Assembly (NCBI GenBank): GCA_030683995.1
Contig: JAUXPH010000018.1
Coordinates: forward strand, 1 to 35,671
DNA: 35,671 nt
Direction: 5' to 3'
From: Lutibacter sp.
GTDB taxonomy: Bacteria; Bacteroidota; Bacteroidia; Flavobacteriales; Flavobacteriaceae
Part shown: piece by piece, positions 21,927 to 33,176 of the stretch
Numbering within the stretch: position 1 is the stretch's first letter
Layout: each line of letters starts with the position of its first letter
Translations under genes and position numbers: made by a program
The notes under the pieces: generated by a model
What the model was told of the DNA's origin: nothing
The model's input: only the letters and a program-made list of their open reading frames with translations
Database searches by the model: none

Positions 21927-22451
21927 ATGAAATTATTAGGAATCGGATCTCGAATTAAACACGAGGAATTTGGATTGGGCGTGATAACCAATGTGAGCGC
22001 CAAAGACTATTGGGTGACTTTTATTGAAAACGGATTGGAAACCATTGCCATCGACAGCAAATTTGAAGTGATTGAATGTGTTGAAGATGAAGTGGATACC
22101 GTTAGTTTTTACGATGTTGAAACTACCTTAAAAAATATGCTGAAACAGTGGTCGGATATTTCTGAAGTCGTGCATTTGGGCGACCGATGGAAAGGCGGAA
22201 AATTAATTATGGAACCGAAAGACCCAAAATTAGCCAGTAAAGAAATTATGATTGATGTGTTTTTTCATAAAATTGTGATGGTAAGAGACCGATTGAGGGT
22301 GATGGAACAAAAAATAAATTCGAGTAAATTGGATGATCTGGATAAAGTTGATTTGCAACAATACATTACCCGAATTTACGGAAGTTTAACTACTTTCAAT
22401 ATTTTGTTTAAACTAAAAGAGCAACAATTTGAAGGTTCAAAATCGGAATAA
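21927..22451 (+). CDS. Conserved unknown with Tudor-like N-terminal domain
   Basis: A 174-residue protein I cannot name. The first about 48 residues (GIGSRIKHEEFGLGVITNV ... DYWVTFIENGLETIAI) resemble the small beta-barrel seen at the C-terminus of UvrD/PcrA helicases (G-x-R-V-x-H-x-x-F-G-x-G-x-V). That fold often contacts RNA polymerase or nucleic acid. The rest is mostly helical and charged (KNMLKQWSDISEVVHLGDRW, KIVMVRDRLRVMEQKI). Soluble, no signal peptide. It is the last gene of the holB operon, ending before a bidirectional terminator. Role unknown. Confidence 0.75.
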   Translation: MKLLGIGSRIKHEEFGLGVITNVSAKDYWVTFIENGLETIAIDSKFEVIECVEDEVDTVSFYDVETTLKNMLKQWSDISEVVHLGDRWKGGKLIMEPKDPKLASKEIMIDVFFHKIVMVRDRLRVMEQKINSSKLDDLDKVDLQQYITRIYGSLTTFNILFKLKEQQFEGSKSE

Positions 22452-22475: not shown

Positions 22476-22513
22476 AAAAAAAGCCGGCCTAAAATTATTT
22501 TAGACCGGCTTTT
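22476..22513. terminator. Bidirectional intrinsic terminator
   Basis: AAAAGCCGGCCTAAAA and TTTTAGACCGGCTTTT pair with one mismatch around a short TTA loop, flanked by A and T runs on both sides. It separates the convergent holB operon and gdhA and should serve both. Confidence 0.85.
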
Positions 22514-22529
22514 GCATATTAAATGTATG

Positions 22530-23867
22530 TTAGATAATTCCTTGATCCAGCATCGCATCGGCAACTTTTATAAAGCCGGCGATATTTGCGCCTTTAACAT
22601 AGTTGATAAACCCGTCATTTTCAGTTCCGTATTTAGAACAAGCCGTATGGATAGAAGACATTATTTGGTGCAATTTTGCATCAACCTCTTCTTTTGTCCA
22701 GTTTAATTTCATGGCATTTTGTGACATTTCCAAACCAGACACGCCAACCCCACCTGCATTTGCTGCTTTACCAGGAGCAAATGGCAATCTGTTTTTATGG
22801 AATAAATCAACAGCTTCAGGAGTACAACCCATGTTTGATACTTCAACAATGTATTTTACGCCATTTTTAATCAATAATTTGGCATCCTCGCCGTCCAATT
22901 CATTTTGGGTTGCACTAGGCATTGCAATATCAACGGCAACTTCCCAAGGTTTTTTTCCCGAGAAAAATTTAGCTTCCGGAAATACTTCTGCGTAAGGAGA
23001 AACTATATCATTGTTTGAAGCTCTTAGCGCCAATAAATAATCAATTTTTTCGGCATCCAAACCTCTTTCATCATAAATATATCCGTCAGGGCCAGAAATG
23101 GTCACCACTTTACCGCCAAGTTCGGTAACTTTTAGGGCAACACCCCAAGCCACATTGCCAAACCCTGAAACAGAAACTGTTTTTCCTTTAAAAGTGTCGT
23201 TATTTGTTGAAAGCATTTCATTTGTGAAATACGTTGCGCCAAAACCTGTTGCTTCCGGTCTGATCAAACTTCCTCCCCAATTTAAACCTTTACCTGTGAA
23301 AACACCAGTATTTTCAAATTGCAGTTTTTTGTACATTCCGTACATAAAGCCAATTTCTCTACTGCCAGTTCCAATATCTCCGGCCGGTACATCTTGGCTA
23401 GGGCCAATAACGCGCCATAACTCTAACATAAAGGCTTGGCAAAAACGCATAATTTCAGCATCTGATTTTCCCTTCGGATTAAAATCAGATCCTCCTTTTG
23501 CGCCACCCATTGGCAAAGTTGTTAAAGCATTTTTAAATGTTTGCTCAAATCCCAAGAATTTAAGGATGCTTAAATTTACGCTTGGATGAAGACGAATACC
23601 GCCTTTGTATGGTCCAATTGCATTGTTATATTGCACTCGGTGTCCTAGGTTAATTTGAACATTCCCTTCATCATCAACCCAAGAAACCCTAAAAGTCAAA
23701 ATACGGTCAGGTTCAACCAATCTTTCAATAATTTTAGCGGCCTCATATTGAGGGTTTTCATCATAAATTGTTTGAATGGATTCTAACACTTCATGAACTG
23801 CTTGTAAGTACTCCTTTTCACCCGGATGTTTGGTTTCAAGGTTTGTCAATATATTTTTTACATTCAT
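22530..23867 (-). CDS. gdhA: NADP-type glutamate dehydrogenase
   Basis: A 445-residue hexameric glutamate dehydrogenase that assimilates ammonium into 2-oxoglutarate to give glutamate. The length and the block GGIRLHPSVN, the catalytic Lys124 in PMGGAKGGSDFNP, Asp164 in DVPAGDIGTGSRE, and the dinucleotide loop SGFGNVAWG all fit the NADP-dependent biosynthetic type. It is transcribed alone. It could use ammonium made by NrfA, although the genes are far apart and show no shared signal. Confidence 0.95.
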   Translation of the reverse strand: MNVKNILTNLETKHPGEKEYLQAVHEVLESIQTIYDENPQYEAAKIIERLVEPDRILTFRVSWVDDEGNVQINLGHRVQYNNAIGPYKGGIRLHPSVNLSILKFLGFEQTFKNALTTLPMGGAKGGSDFNPKGKSDAEIMRFCQAFMLELWRVIGPSQDVPAGDIGTGSREIGFMYGMYKKLQFENTGVFTGKGLNWGGSLIRPEATGFGATYFTNEMLSTNNDTFKGKTVSVSGFGNVAWGVALKVTELGGKVVTISGPDGYIYDERGLDAEKIDYLLALRASNNDIVSPYAEVFPEAKFFSGKKPWEVAVDIAMPSATQNELDGEDAKLLIKNGVKYIVEVSNMGCTPEAVDLFHKNRLPFAPGKAANAGGVGVSGLEMSQNAMKLNWTKEEVDAKLHQIMSSIHTACSKYGTENDGFINYVKGANIAGFIKVADAMLDQGII

Positions 23868-24012: not shown

Positions 24013-24045
24013 TAAAAAAAGCGCAAAAAAGGTGATTTTTGCGCT
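24013..24045 (-). terminator. Terminator after the receiver/PPDK_N gene
   Basis: AGCGCAAAAA (24020-24029) and TTTTTGCGCT (to 24045) form a perfect 10-pair stem. On the minus strand it is followed by a run of seven T. It lies about 70 bases downstream of the stop of the 1010-1014-residue gene. Confidence 0.8.
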
Positions 24046-24114: not shown

Positions 24115-27100
24115 CTAAATAAAACCATCAGGAAGTTCGTCATCATTTAATTTTAAAGAGGTGTTTTGGACCTTATTCAATTTAAATCCTTCTTTAAAAA
24201 TGGCTGCTTTATTGCTTTTTCCCTCAATAATAACAGTGAGCGGTTCTTTAAAATGCACGTGTCTTAAATATTCATCATCATAACTCGCCCTTTGTTTATT
24301 TAAATACTCCAAATCGAAAAACCCATCATCAATAAAAGGGTTTATGGTTAGATAACCCACTTTAAATGAGGTTAAATTTTGGAAAAAATGTGTTCCCTGG
24401 CTTGGATCAATCCTAAAATTATTTAGACCGGCTTCCACAATTACTTTTGCTGATGCTATTTGGGGCCAAATCACAGGAATTCCCAACCATGGATCGCTTG
24501 AGCCCCATCTTCCGGGTCCCACTAAAATATAGTTTTTGTCTATTTCCGCAAATTTTTTATTAATTTGTTCAACTGCCGCCGCTATCTTTCTTGTGTTTGC
24601 CGAGTTGAACGTTTCGGGTTTAATATAAACAATATCGTGAATATTCTCATAATTTCCATTTCCCAAGGCCGATTCCGAGTAAATGATGGTGTCTTCAACA
24701 TTAAAGTCTTCCGGAAGTGTGCTCAAAGTTTCAATGCTCTCAATAATGGGCCTGATTTGCAAAAAACTAAATTCTTTAGGTTGTCCTTTTGGAACATCCA
24801 AATTCACCGCAAATTCCATTTCAATGGGATTTCGCATTTCACGTTGACCGATGCGCAATAAATCCTGTAAAATTTCAGGCAAAGGAAAGGTGTTGTATTT
24901 TAAAATATTGTCAAAAGTAATCACACGAATTCCGTCGTGTAACACGCCCGGTTTAATGATATTGTTTTGCAAATCGTAGGTTGAAGCCACAAATTTTAGC
25001 GAACCATGCTTTTCGGCATTTCTAATGGTAATTTTCTTTTTGTTGATGGCTTCGCTGGTTGAGGCAACATAACTGTCGGGATTCATATCCAATCCAAAGA
25101 AATATTGCTGTGTGTCGCGTTGCGTGGAACCCGGAGATGAGAGTTGCAGCACCTTTTTCGGATGGTAGGGTGAAAATCGCAAGGTATTTCCTCCGCCAAC
25201 AATAATTTCACCCAAACCTAAAGCAATATTTGCGGTTCCTTCATTGGGCAATTCCTGGTCAATCGGATAAAAATTGATGGAACGCGCCACTCCGGAAATG
25301 TTCGGATAATAAACATCATTATATTGTTTTCCGGTAACTTCCTGTAAAATAACCGCCATTTTATCCTCTTCAATGGTATGGGAAGTGGCTTTTAAATAGA
25401 CTTTACTGTTTTGAAAAAATGCAGATGCCATCACCGATTTAATGGCGCTGGCCACCATCTCAACCATTCTGGTTTTGTCGGTGTTTGGAATCATATAAGT
25501 CGCAAACACACCTGCAAAAGGCTGATAATGTGAATCTTCCAAAACGCTTGAGGAACGCACCGCTATTGGTGATTTGGTTACATTTAAAAAAACCCGAATG
25601 TCTTCCATCACCCATTTTGGCAATGATTTTGAGTTAAATTTATTTAAAATTTCTTCATCATCATTACAATTGGCCACAAATCCAATGAGGTCGTGTTTCT
25701 CCATAAACTCATCAAACACTTCCGTACTCAGCACCACGGTACGCGGTATGGAAATATTGACGTCTTTGAATTTATTGAACAATTTATGGCGTTTTAAAAA
25801 AGAATCAATAAACGCCAATCCACGTCCTTTTCCACCCAAAGATCCTTCCCCGATTCTTGCAAAACCCAAATATTCATCATACGTGTTTTTGCTGAATTTT
25901 GAAATAACGCCTCTAGATCTGTATATTCTGTAGGCTTTAATCGCTCTGATTAAAAAATCCCTGATTTCTTCAGGATCCTCAAAATCTTCATATTCTACAT
26001 TGCTGAATAAATTGGCCAAAGGAAAAAGCGCCCTCGATCTTAACCATTTTGAATATTCACTTCTTTTGGCGTGGTAAACTATGGAATCAAGTGTTACTGT
26101 AGTTAAAACTCTTTGAAAACTGTTTAAATCTTCCACGGTTGCCAAAACTTTCATTTGAATGGGATCCCAAAATTCAAAGGCCCCAAAAGAAAAATATTTG
26201 GTGATATATTTTTTTATTTCCTTCCCTAATGTTTCTGAATGTTTGTATAAAAATTTTCCTTTTAACTCTAGTGCTTTTTTCTCATTATTTTGATCGGAAG
26301 ATTGCACTAAAAATGGAAAATAGCGTTCATGACTTCTTACATATTTTAAAAATACAAACCCGGCTTCAGGATCTCGTTTTCCTTCTTTAAAATAACTTAC
26401 ATCTGAAATAACGCCCAACAAATTGTGTTTGTATTTTTCAAAAAGAAACAATCCTTCTTCATAATTTGTGGCCAGCAAAATTTTTGGCCGGCCTCGCATC
26501 AACATCATTGCCCTGTGTTCATTAAGGCCTTCCGACATAAATGAACGGGTTTGTTTTAAAATAATTTTATACATAATTGGCAAATACCTCGAATAAAATT
26601 TCAAGGAATCTTCCACCAGCAAAATAGCCTTCACGCCAATTTGATTGATGTCTTTTTCGGCATTCATCCGGTCTTCGGTAAGTTTAATAATCGCCAAAAA
26701 AATATCGACATTCCCGTTCCAGTGAAACACAAAATCGATAATTCCAGTATTTTCACTGAGCACTTTTTTCCTTAATTCAGAAGAATAATGACTAAGTGCC
26801 GCAATGGGAATGTTTGGAAAAGCTTCTTTGATCAATTTTGAAGTTTCAAAAGCCTTGATATTGCCAATGTCCAGCCAAGTGATCACCAAATCAATTTTAT
26901 CGGAATTCATCATCCCAATGGCCCTTTTGGCGGAGTTGGCGTGAATAAAACTTGGCGGATATCTTAAATTCAGCGCCATATATTCATTAAAAATTCGCTC
27001 ATCTATCCGTCCGTCTTCCTCCAACATATAAAAATCGTAGTTAGAGCAAACTATAAGCACTTTGTTAATTCTGTTTTGCATCAACTGGTTAAATGCAACC

Positions 27101-27159
27101 TCTTCAAACTCATAATTTTTTAAATCGGGCAGCGGATTCCTGTTCATTTTTATCGGCAT
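24115..27159 (-). CDS. Two-receiver protein with PEP/pyruvate-binding (PPDK_N) domain
   Basis: A soluble 1014-residue protein (ATG 27147, codon 5, is also possible). Residues 33-160 are a degenerate receiver (DLVITWLD near 90-97; the usual KP is replaced by HWNGN). Residues about 176-320 are a second receiver with its key residues: Glu183-Asp184 (VEDS), Asp253 (VISDVSYF), Ser287 and Lys306. From about 430 a PPDK_N nucleotide-grasp domain begins: GSLGGKGRGLAFID (439-452), IAVRSSSVLEDSHYQPFAGV (532-551), VILQEVTGKQY and EFSFLQIRP (796-804). The C-terminal about 200 residues contain GPGRWGSSDPWLGIPV (881-896) and SQGTHFFQNL. Neither the phosphohistidine swivel domain nor the PEP-binding barrel of PEP synthase is present. 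It may be automatically annotated as PEP synthase, which it cannot be as such. Function unknown; a phosphorylation-controlled ATP-grasp enzyme is one inference. Confidence 0.82.
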   Translation of the reverse strand: MPIKMNRNPLPDLKNYEFEEVAFNQLMQNRINKVLIVCSNYDFYMLEEDGRIDERIFNEYMALNLRYPPSFIHANSAKRAIGMMNSDKIDLVITWLDIGNIKAFETSKLIKEAFPNIPIAALSHYSSELRKKVLSENTGIIDFVFHWNGNVDIFLAIIKLTEDRMNAEKDINQIGVKAILLVEDSLKFYSRYLPIMYKIILKQTRSFMSEGLNEHRAMMLMRGRPKILLATNYEEGLFLFEKYKHNLLGVISDVSYFKEGKRDPEAGFVFLKYVRSHERYFPFLVQSSDQNNEKKALELKGKFLYKHSETLGKEIKKYITKYFSFGAFEFWDPIQMKVLATVEDLNSFQRVLTTVTLDSIVYHAKRSEYSKWLRSRALFPLANLFSNVEYEDFEDPEEIRDFLIRAIKAYRIYRSRGVISKFSKNTYDEYLGFARIGEGSLGGKGRGLAFIDSFLKRHKLFNKFKDVNISIPRTVVLSTEVFDEFMEKHDLIGFVANCNDDEEILNKFNSKSLPKWVMEDIRVFLNVTKSPIAVRSSSVLEDSHYQPFAGVFATYMIPNTDKTRMVEMVASAIKSVMASAFFQNSKVYLKATSHTIEEDKMAVILQEVTGKQYNDVYYPNISGVARSINFYPIDQELPNEGTANIALGLGEIIVGGGNTLRFSPYHPKKVLQLSSPGSTQRDTQQYFFGLDMNPDSYVASTSEAINKKKITIRNAEKHGSLKFVASTYDLQNNIIKPGVLHDGIRVITFDNILKYNTFPLPEILQDLLRIGQREMRNPIEMEFAVNLDVPKGQPKEFSFLQIRPIIESIETLSTLPEDFNVEDTIIYSESALGNGNYENIHDIVYIKPETFNSANTRKIAAAVEQINKKFAEIDKNYILVGPGRWGSSDPWLGIPVIWPQIASAKVIVEAGLNNFRIDPSQGTHFFQNLTSFKVGYLTINPFIDDGFFDLEYLNKQRASYDDEYLRHVHFKEPLTVIIEGKSNKAAIFKEGFKLNKVQNTSLKLNDDELPDGFI

Positions 27160-28435: not shown

Positions 28436-28837
28436 ATGAAAGCCGACATTCAAATTCCTGAAGTTACTGAGGTTTTTATGGCCATTGTGAAAGAATACAA
28501 TGACATTTTTCAGTGCGAAGATTGGAATGCCTATATCATTAACAACAAAGATGTTGATTTGGAAATGGTGTTGGTGGTTTCAAAAGGTTATGATGAAGGT
28601 GAACTGATTGAAACTTCATTGCTGCGCCATAAAATTGATAAACTTCCGGCAAAATCCTTTGCAAAAGTTGAGTTGATGCAGGAAGAAGTTTTAAAATTGT
28701 CCAATTTTTTTAATGTGACCTTTTTTGAGGGAAATGCGATGTTCGACAAAAAATACCTGTTTAAAAAAGGAACCATCAGAGAAAGCGCATTGCGTATGAT
28801 TCCTTTGTTGAATAAAAAAGGAATTTTGGTAAAATAG
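28436..28837 (+). CDS. Conserved protein of unknown function
   Basis: A 133-residue soluble protein that I do not recognise by family. Codon use is like its neighbours, and the reading frame is clean from MKADIQIPEVTEV to NKKGILVK. The composition suggests mixed alpha/beta with a segment LEMVLVVSKGYDEGELIETS. No signal peptide, membrane span or cysteine pair is seen. It is flanked by repeats on both sides and probably transcribed alone. A frame on the opposite strand (28588-28947) is a shadow of this gene. Confidence 0.7.
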   Translation: MKADIQIPEVTEVFMAIVKEYNDIFQCEDWNAYIINNKDVDLEMVLVVSKGYDEGELIETSLLRHKIDKLPAKSFAKVELMQEEVLKLSNFFNVTFFEGNAMFDKKYLFKKGTIRESALRMIPLLNKKGILVK

Positions 28838-30326: not shown

Positions 30327-33176
30327 CTATATTTTCAATAAATAGTTTTTTAGTTTGGAATCTAAATCCTCTTTGCTAATTGGTTTTGACATAAAATCAT
30401 CACAACCCGCTAAAAAGGCTTTTTCTTTTTCCTCGGGCGATGAATAGGCTGTTTGCGCAATTATTGGCAGGTTTGGACGAAATTCTTTTATGATTCTTGT
30501 CGCTTCGCGTCCATCCATTTTAGGCATTTTTATATCCATTAAAACCATTTCAATGGCTGAATTGCTTTTGCACAATTCAACCGCTTCCAAGCCGTCTTTG
30601 GCGTGAATTATAATGCAGGGAAATTTAAGTTTATCCTCCAGCAATATTTCCAAAACCATATAATTCACATCTTCGTCTTCGGCGATTAAAATGGTGTATT
30701 TCTTCTTATTCTCCATTTCTTTTTCTTCTACTTTCTCATTTTCAATCTTTTGAGTTAAGTTTACTGGTTTGTAAGGTATGGTGACAAAAAAAACGGCGCC
30801 TTTGCCAAGTTGTGAAACCACCGTTATTTTCCCTCCCAGCAGCTCCGCATTTTCTTTGGCGATGGAAAGTCCCAGTCCCAATCCGCCCACTTTTTTGGAC
30901 AATTCTTTTTCTGCCTGTGAAAATCGCTCGAAAATCATTTTTTGTTTTTCAGGCTTAATGCCAATTCCGCTGTCTTTTACAAAAATATTCAGTTCGGCTG
31001 GCTTAATGTCCGTATTTAGTTTATACCCCAATTCCACAATACCTTCATTCGTAAATTTTAAGGCGTTTTCCAACAAATTGCTCAACACTTTATTCAGCTT
31101 GTTATTATCGGTGAGTATGGCGCTTTCCTTATCTGAAAGTTCGTTTTTCAAAACCAATGGAATGTTCTTTTTAGTGGCTTTCATTTCAAAAACAGTAAAT
31201 AATTCGAACAATAAATCATTGAGGCAAACTGGTTGCTCTTCCGCCTTAATTTGTTTGGTTTCCAATACAGAAATCTCCATCAAATCATCAATAATATGCA
31301 ATAACTGGTGGGTGCTGTTTTTAATGATTTCAATAAATCTTTTTCTTTTTTCTTTAGGCAAGTCGGGGTTTTCCAATAAATCTGTAAAACCTAAAATACC
31401 ATTCATTGGTGTCCGAATTTCGTGGGACATATTTTGAATGAATTCTGTTTTTAGCTGATTGCTTTCTTCGGCTTTTTCTTTGGCTATTAATAGGTCTTGC
31501 TCAGCTTGTTTACGCTTGGTAATGTCCCTCCAAACGCAATGAATTACTTGATTATTTGGCTCGTTCTCAATGGTGGTCAGTAAAACTTCAACGGGGAATG
31601 TTTCTCCATTGCTTTTGGTGTGCCACCACTCAAAACGATGTGTTCCCTTTTCTAATACAATTTTTATGAGTGCTTCTGCTTTTTCAAAAGAATTTAATCC
31701 GTCTGGCTGAAATTTTGGCGATAATTCTGAAGGCTGAAGGTTTAAAACTTCTTCAAATACTTTATACGAAAGCATATTTAAAGTCGCCTGGTTACATTCC
31801 ACAAAAACGCCATTTTTAATGATCAATATGGCGTCGCCTGATTTTTCAAAAAGTTCCCGAAATTTTTTCTCGCTTTTTTCAATTTCATGGGTTGCTTTCC
31901 GCAATTTTTCTTCCGCTTCCTTATTTTTGCTGATATCTTCTTTGATGGCTAAATATGAAGAAATTTCGCCTACTTCATTTTTAATGGGGGTTATAGTTGT
32001 TCTTTCCCAGTAAAGATTTCCATTTTTGGCTTTGTTTTGAAATTCTCCTATCCATATTTTTCCTGCGGTTATTGTTTGCCATAAATTACTGTAAAATTCT
32101 TTTGGCTGCTTTCCTGAGCTTAAAATTCTTGGGTTTTTCCCTAAAACTTCAGCGGCGGCATAGCCCGTTATTTCGGTAAACTTAGGGTTTGTGTATTCTA
32201 TGTTTCCATGAACATCTGTTATAATTATGGTGTTGGCACTTTGTTCAATAGTAATTGAGAGTTTTTTATTGGCGGCTTCAGATTTTTTACGTTCCGTAAT
32301 ATCTCTAACAGCGGCAACTCTAAGTTTATCATTATTTTCCGAAAAAAAAACTCTTGCCTCTATTTCCACCGGAAAAATAGCGCCGCCTTTTTTAATGCCT
32401 TCTATTTCAAAAGGCAGAACGTAATTTTTCGCAATGCTTTTGGAAATAATTTGATGGTGTTTTTTAGGAAAAAGAAGTTCAATAATATTTTTTCCAAGCA
32501 GTTCTTCGTTCCTGTACCCAAACATTTTTCCAAATGCAAGATTGGCATCAACAGCAATGCCTAAATTATGAATTAAAATTCCTTCAAATGTTAGGTTAGA
32601 TAATTGTTTAAATTTTTCTTCGCTTTTCTCGGCTTTTTCTTTTGCAAGTTTTAACTCCTCAGCTTTTGTGTTTAATTGATTCTCCAATAGCATATTTTCA
32701 AGCATTTTCTCAACTTTTATTGCAATTATTTTCAGAATGGTTTCAACAGTTTTGGCATCTTTTAATGGCTTAGTGTGCATAAGGGCTATTAACCCAAAAG
32801 GTTCTTTTTTTGAGTTCCACAAAGGAATACCCACATAACTGTCAATGTTTTTTTGAGCCAGAAAATCATCCTTAAAAAAAATAGTATTTACTTTGGTTGG
32901 GTAGCAACAAAACTTTTTATTGATAATAGTCTCACAAGGGGTATTTGCCAGTTTATAAACAATATTTGGCATTAAAATGCCTTTTTCATAAAACACAACG
33001 GTTTCTGAAATTGATGGCGTTTTTAGTGAATACTTATCAATTAACACATAGTCAACGCCAAATAACTCGGCTAAAAAAACGGCTGTTGATTTTAGAAATT
33101 TTGTGTGATTGGTTTCATAGCCATTTTCTGAAATGAAGGCCAAGGTATCTTCAATATATTTTACTGGCACGCTCAT
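30327..33176 (-). CDS. Hybrid sensor histidine kinase (GAF-PAS3-HisKA-HATPase-REC)
   Basis: A 949-residue cytoplasmic kinase without membrane spans. A GAF domain covers about 20-160 (ANTPCETIINKKFCCYP, IDSYVGIPLWN), then a coiled coil to 190. Three PAS domains follow at about 190-298, 303-418 and 436-556, each ending in a PAC-like motif (VRDITERK, IKEDISKNK, WRDITKRK). HisKA has His585 in NMSHEIRTPMNGILG. HATPase_c has LLENALKF, VKDSGIGI and GGLGLGLSIAKE. A C-terminal receiver (about 827-949) has AEDED and Asp881 in MDIKMPKMDG. It probably senses a small molecule or redox signal and passes phosphate to an unlinked partner. No DNA-binding regulator is adjacent. Confidence 0.94.
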   Translation of the reverse strand: MSVPVKYIEDTLAFISENGYETNHTKFLKSTAVFLAELFGVDYVLIDKYSLKTPSISETVVFYEKGILMPNIVYKLANTPCETIINKKFCCYPTKVNTIFFKDDFLAQKNIDSYVGIPLWNSKKEPFGLIALMHTKPLKDAKTVETILKIIAIKVEKMLENMLLENQLNTKAEELKLAKEKAEKSEEKFKQLSNLTFEGILIHNLGIAVDANLAFGKMFGYRNEELLGKNIIELLFPKKHHQIISKSIAKNYVLPFEIEGIKKGGAIFPVEIEARVFFSENNDKLRVAAVRDITERKKSEAANKKLSITIEQSANTIIITDVHGNIEYTNPKFTEITGYAAAEVLGKNPRILSSGKQPKEFYSNLWQTITAGKIWIGEFQNKAKNGNLYWERTTITPIKNEVGEISSYLAIKEDISKNKEAEEKLRKATHEIEKSEKKFRELFEKSGDAILIIKNGVFVECNQATLNMLSYKVFEEVLNLQPSELSPKFQPDGLNSFEKAEALIKIVLEKGTHRFEWWHTKSNGETFPVEVLLTTIENEPNNQVIHCVWRDITKRKQAEQDLLIAKEKAEESNQLKTEFIQNMSHEIRTPMNGILGFTDLLENPDLPKEKRKRFIEIIKNSTHQLLHIIDDLMEISVLETKQIKAEEQPVCLNDLLFELFTVFEMKATKKNIPLVLKNELSDKESAILTDNNKLNKVLSNLLENALKFTNEGIVELGYKLNTDIKPAELNIFVKDSGIGIKPEKQKMIFERFSQAEKELSKKVGGLGLGLSIAKENAELLGGKITVVSQLGKGAVFFVTIPYKPVNLTQKIENEKVEEKEMENKKKYTILIAEDEDVNYMVLEILLEDKLKFPCIIIHAKDGLEAVELCKSNSAIEMVLMDIKMPKMDGREATRIIKEFRPNLPIIAQTAYSSPEEKEKAFLAGCDDFMSKPISKEDLDSKLKNYLLKI

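Follow-up and report, generated by a model that had tools for sequence, protein, structure and literature searches.

The 35,671-nucleotide stretch of Lutibacter sp. DNA analyzed here (contig JAUXPH010000018.1 of GenBank assembly GCA_030683995.1; hereafter the window) carries, on the minus strand at positions 24115 to 27159, a gene of 1014 codons whose product joins two receiver folds to the nucleotide-grasp domain of pyruvate phosphate dikinase (PPDK) and phosphoenolpyruvate (PEP) synthase. Across Bacteroidota and in a second phylum, relatives of this gene recur beside genes for glutamate dehydrogenase (GDH). We lean, by a little more than even chances, to the view that the protein is a receiver-controlled phosphotransferase that regulates GDH, acting at the glutamate/2-oxoglutarate node and most likely on GDH itself. 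That the family is functionally tied to GDH or its pathway in some way is highly probable.

Domain organization of the 1014-residue protein

The protein consists of a degenerate receiver, a second receiver, a linker, a PPDK_N domain and a cryptic C-terminal domain that resembles phosphohistidine domains, and we are confident of this layout. PPDK_N (PF01326) is the sole Pfam family above its cut-off (residues 440 to 807, 128.5 bits against a cut-off of 27). The ATP-grasp domain as a whole spans residues 421 to 807 (24739 to 25899, minus strand) and keeps Lys444, Arg535, Glu780, Glu782, Gln801, and Arg803, which we take, from work on PPDK, to be residues of the nucleotide site. The full-length AlphaFold model has a predicted local distance difference test score (pLDDT) of 84.9. 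A reading of this DNA made from the letters alone (the sequence-only reading) had described a well-kept nucleotide-grasp domain and a missing PEP barrel, and both descriptions hold: the Pfam search gave no match to the PEP/pyruvate TIM barrel, the AlphaFold model contains none, and the sequence ends about 200 residues past PPDK_N, leaving no room for one. Searched with the single sequence, the solved structures gave no match at E ≤ 1.

The first receiver fold (residues 31 to 175; 26635 to 27069, minus strand) is degenerate, lacking both the phospho-accepting Asp and the Lys, and is assigned from a Response_reg match below the cut-off (E of 5e-4) together with the AlphaFold model; its Asp42 and Trp147 are conserved. 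The PF00072 profile reaches 20.5 bits on the 1014-residue protein, under the cut-off of 30.2, over residues 73 to 144, and one homologue scores 41.3 bits. The second receiver (residues 176 to 327; 26179 to 26634, minus strand) has an extended first helix and carries Glu183, Asp184, Asp253, Ser287, and Lys306, with Asp253 (codon 26401 to 26403, minus strand) as the presumed phosphorylation site on the strength of its conservation. AlphaFold supports two receiver folds across residues 31 to 327 and solved tandem-receiver structures were matched, as the sequence-only reading had anticipated, and its intact phosphorylation site in the second receiver is likewise present in the family (see below).

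The C-terminal domain (residues 808 to 996; 24172 to 24738, minus strand) was modeled on its own from residues 806 to 996, and its closest solved structures, among those listed, include several swivelling phosphohistidine domains, one of them that of the rifampin phosphotransferase Rph, which spans residues 755 to 867 in the comparison. A helix of residues 924 to 931 starts at His924 in both the full-length model and the model of the C-terminal domain alone; the histidine (codon 24388 to 24390, minus strand) is invariant and is preceded by Ser or Thr. With medium strength, then, the C-terminal 170 residues appear to resemble a very diverged swivelling phosphohistidine domain, and we consider it slightly favored that His924 is the phospho-carrier. 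Weighing against this assignment, hhalign gave the C-terminal region a probability of 0.1% when aligned with the phosphohistidine domain PF00391. The PF00391 profile found no match in the protein up to an E of 10; the other hhalign alignment modes found nothing against PPDK His domains; and the solved structures, searched with the C-terminal alignment, returned seven rows with a best E of 0.06 and no phosphotransferase among them. The sequence-only reading had held that the His domain is missing, and this is right at the level of sequence profiles, where PF00391 has no match, and doubtful at the level of the fold, given the nearest solved structures and the invariant His924.

The linker between the receivers and PPDK_N (residues 328 to 420; 25900 to 26178, minus strand) is modeled by AlphaFold as two strands and helices and is weakly similar to DUF5752 (residues 333 to 407, E of 0.006, below the cut-off).

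Conservation and architectures of the family

Relatives were collected from two sources. A sample of 198 Bacteroidota genomes contained a full-length relative (E ≤ 1e-40) in 26 of them, and a scan of reference genomes confirmed at least 571 relatives among at least 596 stretches, of which the best 80 were retained as loci. Conservation was measured on 131 proteins from these 80 reference loci and 20 further context loci, classed by length and architecture, with fragments and other lengths left out. They comprise 79 and 21 proteins of about 1000 residues with two receivers, 21 longer paralogs (at least 1130 residues), five short forms lacking receivers, and five forms with a C-terminal nucleotidyltransferase.

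Lys444, Arg535, Glu782, and Gln801 are present in 131 of 131 proteins, across five architectures, while Asp replaces Glu780 in 5 and Lys replaces Arg803 in 21. At the C terminus, His924 and the Ser or Thr at position 923 are likewise found in all 131, as part of a motif of Gly883, Arg884, Trp885, Gly886, Asp889, Gly893, Ser920, Gly922, His924, Phe925, and Phe926 that is shared by every member. That the nucleotide-site residues and His924 are kept in every architecture argues for catalysis. Among the 121 receiver-bearing sequences, Glu183, Asp253, Ser287, and Lys306 of the second receiver are invariant and Asp184 is replaced by Asn in 8; His363 of the linker is nearly invariant in the three receiver-bearing groups (77/79, 21/21, and 21/21). 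The form that fuses PPDK_N to a nucleotidyltransferase occurs in records named for Delongbacteria, Calditrichota, KSB1, Neomarinimicrobiota, Anaerolineae, and Bacteroidota and so spans several phyla; GDH linkage was examined in two phyla.

A search of predicted proteins with the 1014-residue query gave at least 7,997 scored matches. Among the 120 matches listed, identity is 78 to 94% and query coverage 98 to 100%, the organisms given are all Flavobacteriales, and the record names include PEP/pyruvate-binding domain-containing protein, phosphoenolpyruvate synthase, and hypothetical protein. The misnaming as PEP synthase that the sequence-only reading foresaw has therefore happened in some database records; the family, these records included, is probably not PEP synthase.

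Linkage to glutamate dehydrogenase

Of the 33 full-length genes in the 26 Bacteroidota genomes, 28 have a GDH no more than 1 kb away and 29 no more than 5 kb away, compared with an estimated chance of about 1% of finding GDH near a random place (taking three GDH genes with 13 kb each in a genome of 3.5 Mb); the count is not free of kinship. The four genes with no GDH within 5 kb lie in genomes G074, G014, G132, and G019, and linkage is seen in at least one genome of all eight taxonomic families, as labelled by the analysis tool, that hold the gene. Several genomes have arrays in which GDH and the gene alternate (GDH-gene-GDH-gene). In Parabacteroides distasonis gdhA is a divergent neighbor at a distance of 195 bases, with a second GDH 3.5 kb further on. 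The gene and GDH are also adjacent in Gillisia limnaea DSM 15749 (locus L056). Presence of the two also goes together: all 26 genomes with the gene encode a GdhA-type GDH (E < 1e-100), against 35 of the 172 that lack it (Fisher p of 5e-16, uncorrected for kinship).

The linkage extends to the other architectures. GDH lies within 5 kb of 8 of 9 receiver-less short forms in Bacteroidota and of 13 of 18 forms with PPDK_N and a nucleotidyltransferase; six of the latter are less than 400 bases from GDH, which leaves no room for an intervening short form. The GDH beside the short and nucleotidyltransferase forms is of a distant type, about 31 to 36% identical to the GDH of the window, so the linkage spans two GDH subfamilies. 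In the second phylum, that of genome G199 (locus L113, titled Candidatus Delongbacteria), 12 of 13 genomes hold the C-terminal domain. There a GDH lies no further than 5 kb from 11 of 18 full-length genes (two of the 18 being fragments), 9 of 9 short forms, and 8 of 8 nucleotidyltransferase forms; such linkage occurs in 9 of the 12 domain-holding genomes. In 100 context loci, 20 of them hand-picked from the Bacteroidota sample and some of these chosen for two copies or short forms, GDH is a neighbor cluster in 54 and the next commonest cluster in 11.

A conserved cluster of the distant GDH, a receiver-less short form and a PPDK_N-nucleotidyltransferase protein was seen at L047:3139-9565 and at loci L038, L046, L049, and L050, the contig of L050 ending before any GDH. 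Of the five loci with the nucleotidyltransferase form, four (L046, L047, L049, and L050) share a further neighbor cluster; its member at L046 is a calcineurin-like phosphoesterase, which could be an opposing activity. At each of L033, L034, and L036, two copies of the family gene flank genes for a LuxR-type regulator and a PAS histidine kinase, both identified in L033.

In other counts the linkage is weaker. GDH is within 5 kb in only 38 of the best 80 reference loci, and where at least 3 kb of flank is available on both sides it is found in 24 of 44 loci and absent from 20. It is not adjacent to the family gene in Bacteroides muris (8 kb flanks) or in a Prevotella record (12 kb flanks). Taken together, GDH or a 2-oxoacid:ferredoxin oxidoreductase is present in 47 of the 80 loci, and 33 have neither. 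No GDH alignment column separated 59 linked from 35 unlinked enzymes under the rule that one residue be present in at least 90% of the linked and at most 25% of the unlinked proteins. In a Bacteroidaceae metagenome-assembled genome (L123) a divergent GDH lies 1.3 kb off, and at the Mediterranea locus L132 the contig stops 1.5 kb upstream of the gene. Of the genomes behind such loci, 10 of 10 searched encode a GDH, Prevotella and L125 not being among them.

The oxidoreductase gene, or pair of genes, is near the family gene in 11 of the 80 loci, no more than about 400 bases away in 10 and at 3 kb in one (L075). The second-commonest neighbor cluster (11 of 100 context loci) is its beta subunit, as judged from the members tested, and the one alpha subunit tested matches TIGR03710 with 658 bits (cut-off 483). 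The oxidoreductase genes sit upstream of the family genes, e.g., at L060:1399-4265.

Neighborhood in the window

In the window itself, the GDH gene follows immediately downstream on the same strand (22530 to 23867, minus strand; 445 residues; NF010633, 831 bits against a cut-off of 743). A terminator-like hairpin of 10 pairs followed by a T run (24020 to 24045, minus strand) stands between the two genes, and a simple operon with GDH was dropped for this reason. A second, strong terminator-like hairpin of 16 pairs follows directly after the GDH gene (22479 to 22513, minus strand). About 3 kb from the 1014-codon gene is a hybrid PAS histidine kinase with its own receiver (30327 to 33176, minus strand), which could be the partner kinase or phosphodonor of the protein. 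Two open frames on the plus strand, 21927 to 22451 (174 residues) and 28436 to 28837 (133 residues), have no Pfam or NCBIfam match.

Proposed mechanism and alternatives

On the mechanism that we propose, a histidine kinase would phosphorylate Asp253 of the second receiver, as its conserved site suggests. The change would be relayed to PPDK_N and release it, and the domain, with its conserved nucleotide-site residues, would bind ATP. By analogy with PPDK and PEP synthase, and from the fold and invariance of the C-terminal domain, the ATP-grasp domain may then phosphorylate His924 on a swinging C-terminal domain. In a last step, to which the gene neighborhood points, the phosphate would pass to GDH or a partner, or binding to GDH would be altered, and GDH activity would follow nitrogen status; this step would replace the transfer to pyruvate in a TIM barrel, which the protein lacks. 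The two-component-controlled phosphotransfer or ATP-dependent enzyme of the sequence-only reading is thus supported in part, in its receivers and its nucleotide-grasp domain, and the substrate that it left unnamed can be narrowed by the neighborhood to GDH, or at least to the glutamate/2-oxoglutarate node. That GDH is the direct phosphate acceptor is possible and somewhat less than probable. More tentative still is the full scheme, in which two-component signaling turns on and off an ATP-grasp/phosphohistidine machine, assembled from parts of PEP synthase, that phosphorylates or otherwise covalently modifies GDH, with the nucleotidyltransferase form as a sister system, in an undescribed family of Bacteroidota and several other phyla.

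A metabolic enzyme might leave much the same traces: PPDK_N and His924 would phosphorylate a small molecule of the GDH or 2-oxoacid oxidoreductase reactions, be it 2-oxoglutarate, glutamate, or one of their derivatives, with the receivers merely gating the enzyme. Domains of the PPDK type usually do carry out small-molecule phosphotransfer, as in PEP synthase and rifampin phosphotransferase, and the neighboring genes encode 2-oxoacid enzymes; however, neither a barrel nor another recognized small-molecule domain follows PPDK_N, and the receivers, together with the nucleotidyltransferase of relatives, look regulatory. We think this explanation unlikely, though worth keeping in view. Less likely again is a partner that controls GDH by phosphorylation-dependent binding, with the ATP-grasp and His domains serving as a nucleotide sensor that transfers nothing. 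Such a protein would fit the tight gene linkage and the fact that no acceptor residue is visible in GDH, yet the catalytic-looking conservation described above speaks against it. A passive link, in which old synteny has persisted by chance or through shared transcription and means nothing for function, could account for the lack of linkage in Bacteroides muris, the Prevotella record and the 20 well-flanked loci, but the association is found with both subfamilies of GDH, in three architectures and in two phyla, while gene order and orientation vary, and we hold a passive link to be quite improbable. An ordinary PEP synthase or PPDK whose annotation match was lost has in its favor the name on some database records and is contradicted by length and domains, there being neither a barrel nor a PF00391 match, and by a separate 910-residue protein of the same genome, the only one found by the PF00391 search, so that this canonical enzyme was dropped as scarcely credible.

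Three further candidates were also dropped. Anti-phage defense received no PADLOC match for the 1014-residue protein or the short form, the PADLOC matches falling on the nucleotidyltransferase region of the fused relative (best E of 4e-6). For a phage protein, PHROGs gave only one match, to the receiver region (E of 0.014). For plasmid cargo, there were only three plasmid records, each typed as non-mobilizable.

Relation to known systems and significance

The family shares with PPDK and PEP synthase (PF01326, PF00391, and PEP barrel) the ATP-grasp domain, site residues included, and after it a domain whose swivelling fold is probably common to both and in which a conserved [S/T/C]-His opens a helix; it differs in lacking the PEP/pyruvate barrel and a PF00391 match and in having tandem receivers in front. 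The His domain of Rph lies at its far C terminus, after the drug-binding domain, and Rph (PDB 5hv1 and 5fbu) thus differs from the family in that placement and in having no receivers. Regulators with tandem receivers, such as PleD and 3luf, have the same two N-terminal receiver folds, but the output of the family is a PPDK_N phosphotransferase core and not the GGDEF of PleD-type proteins. GlnE and isocitrate dehydrogenase kinase are regulators of metabolism that modify enzymes; the family would act alike if GDH is modified, and a GDH-linked relative carries a nucleotidyltransferase domain, although we know of no PPDK_N core shared with either.

Reversible inactivation of GDH in Bacteroides fragilis was reportedly described in 1987, an account that a literature search did not find. 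Searches of the literature, which covered titles and abstract openings with subscription papers mostly outside them, returned nothing on the family or on a receiver-PPDK_N protein. By its title, a 1996 paper of Baggio and Morrison, cited in PMC4539542, is said to concern one or more trans-acting genes downstream of gdhA in Bacteroides thetaiotaomicron, a likeness in that GDH activity would there depend on a neighboring gene; since Bacteroides muris, the one Bacteroides genome examined, does not have the family beside GDH, we do not claim the family as that gene. The family is built from known parts, and its likely role at GDH is, as far as we know, new.

In many Bacteroidota GDH is a main route by which ammonia enters biomass, and to our knowledge its mode of switching in these bacteria is not settled. 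The linkage suggests an undescribed switch in nitrogen metabolism, and with a candidate gene, a proposed switch residue (Asp253) and a proposed phospho-carrier residue (His924) now named for GDH control, the question becomes directly testable. The family, which numbers several hundred genes or more (at least 571 relatives, 80 of them inspected), is probably not PEP synthase although some records bear that name, and metabolic models built from annotation are affected by this.
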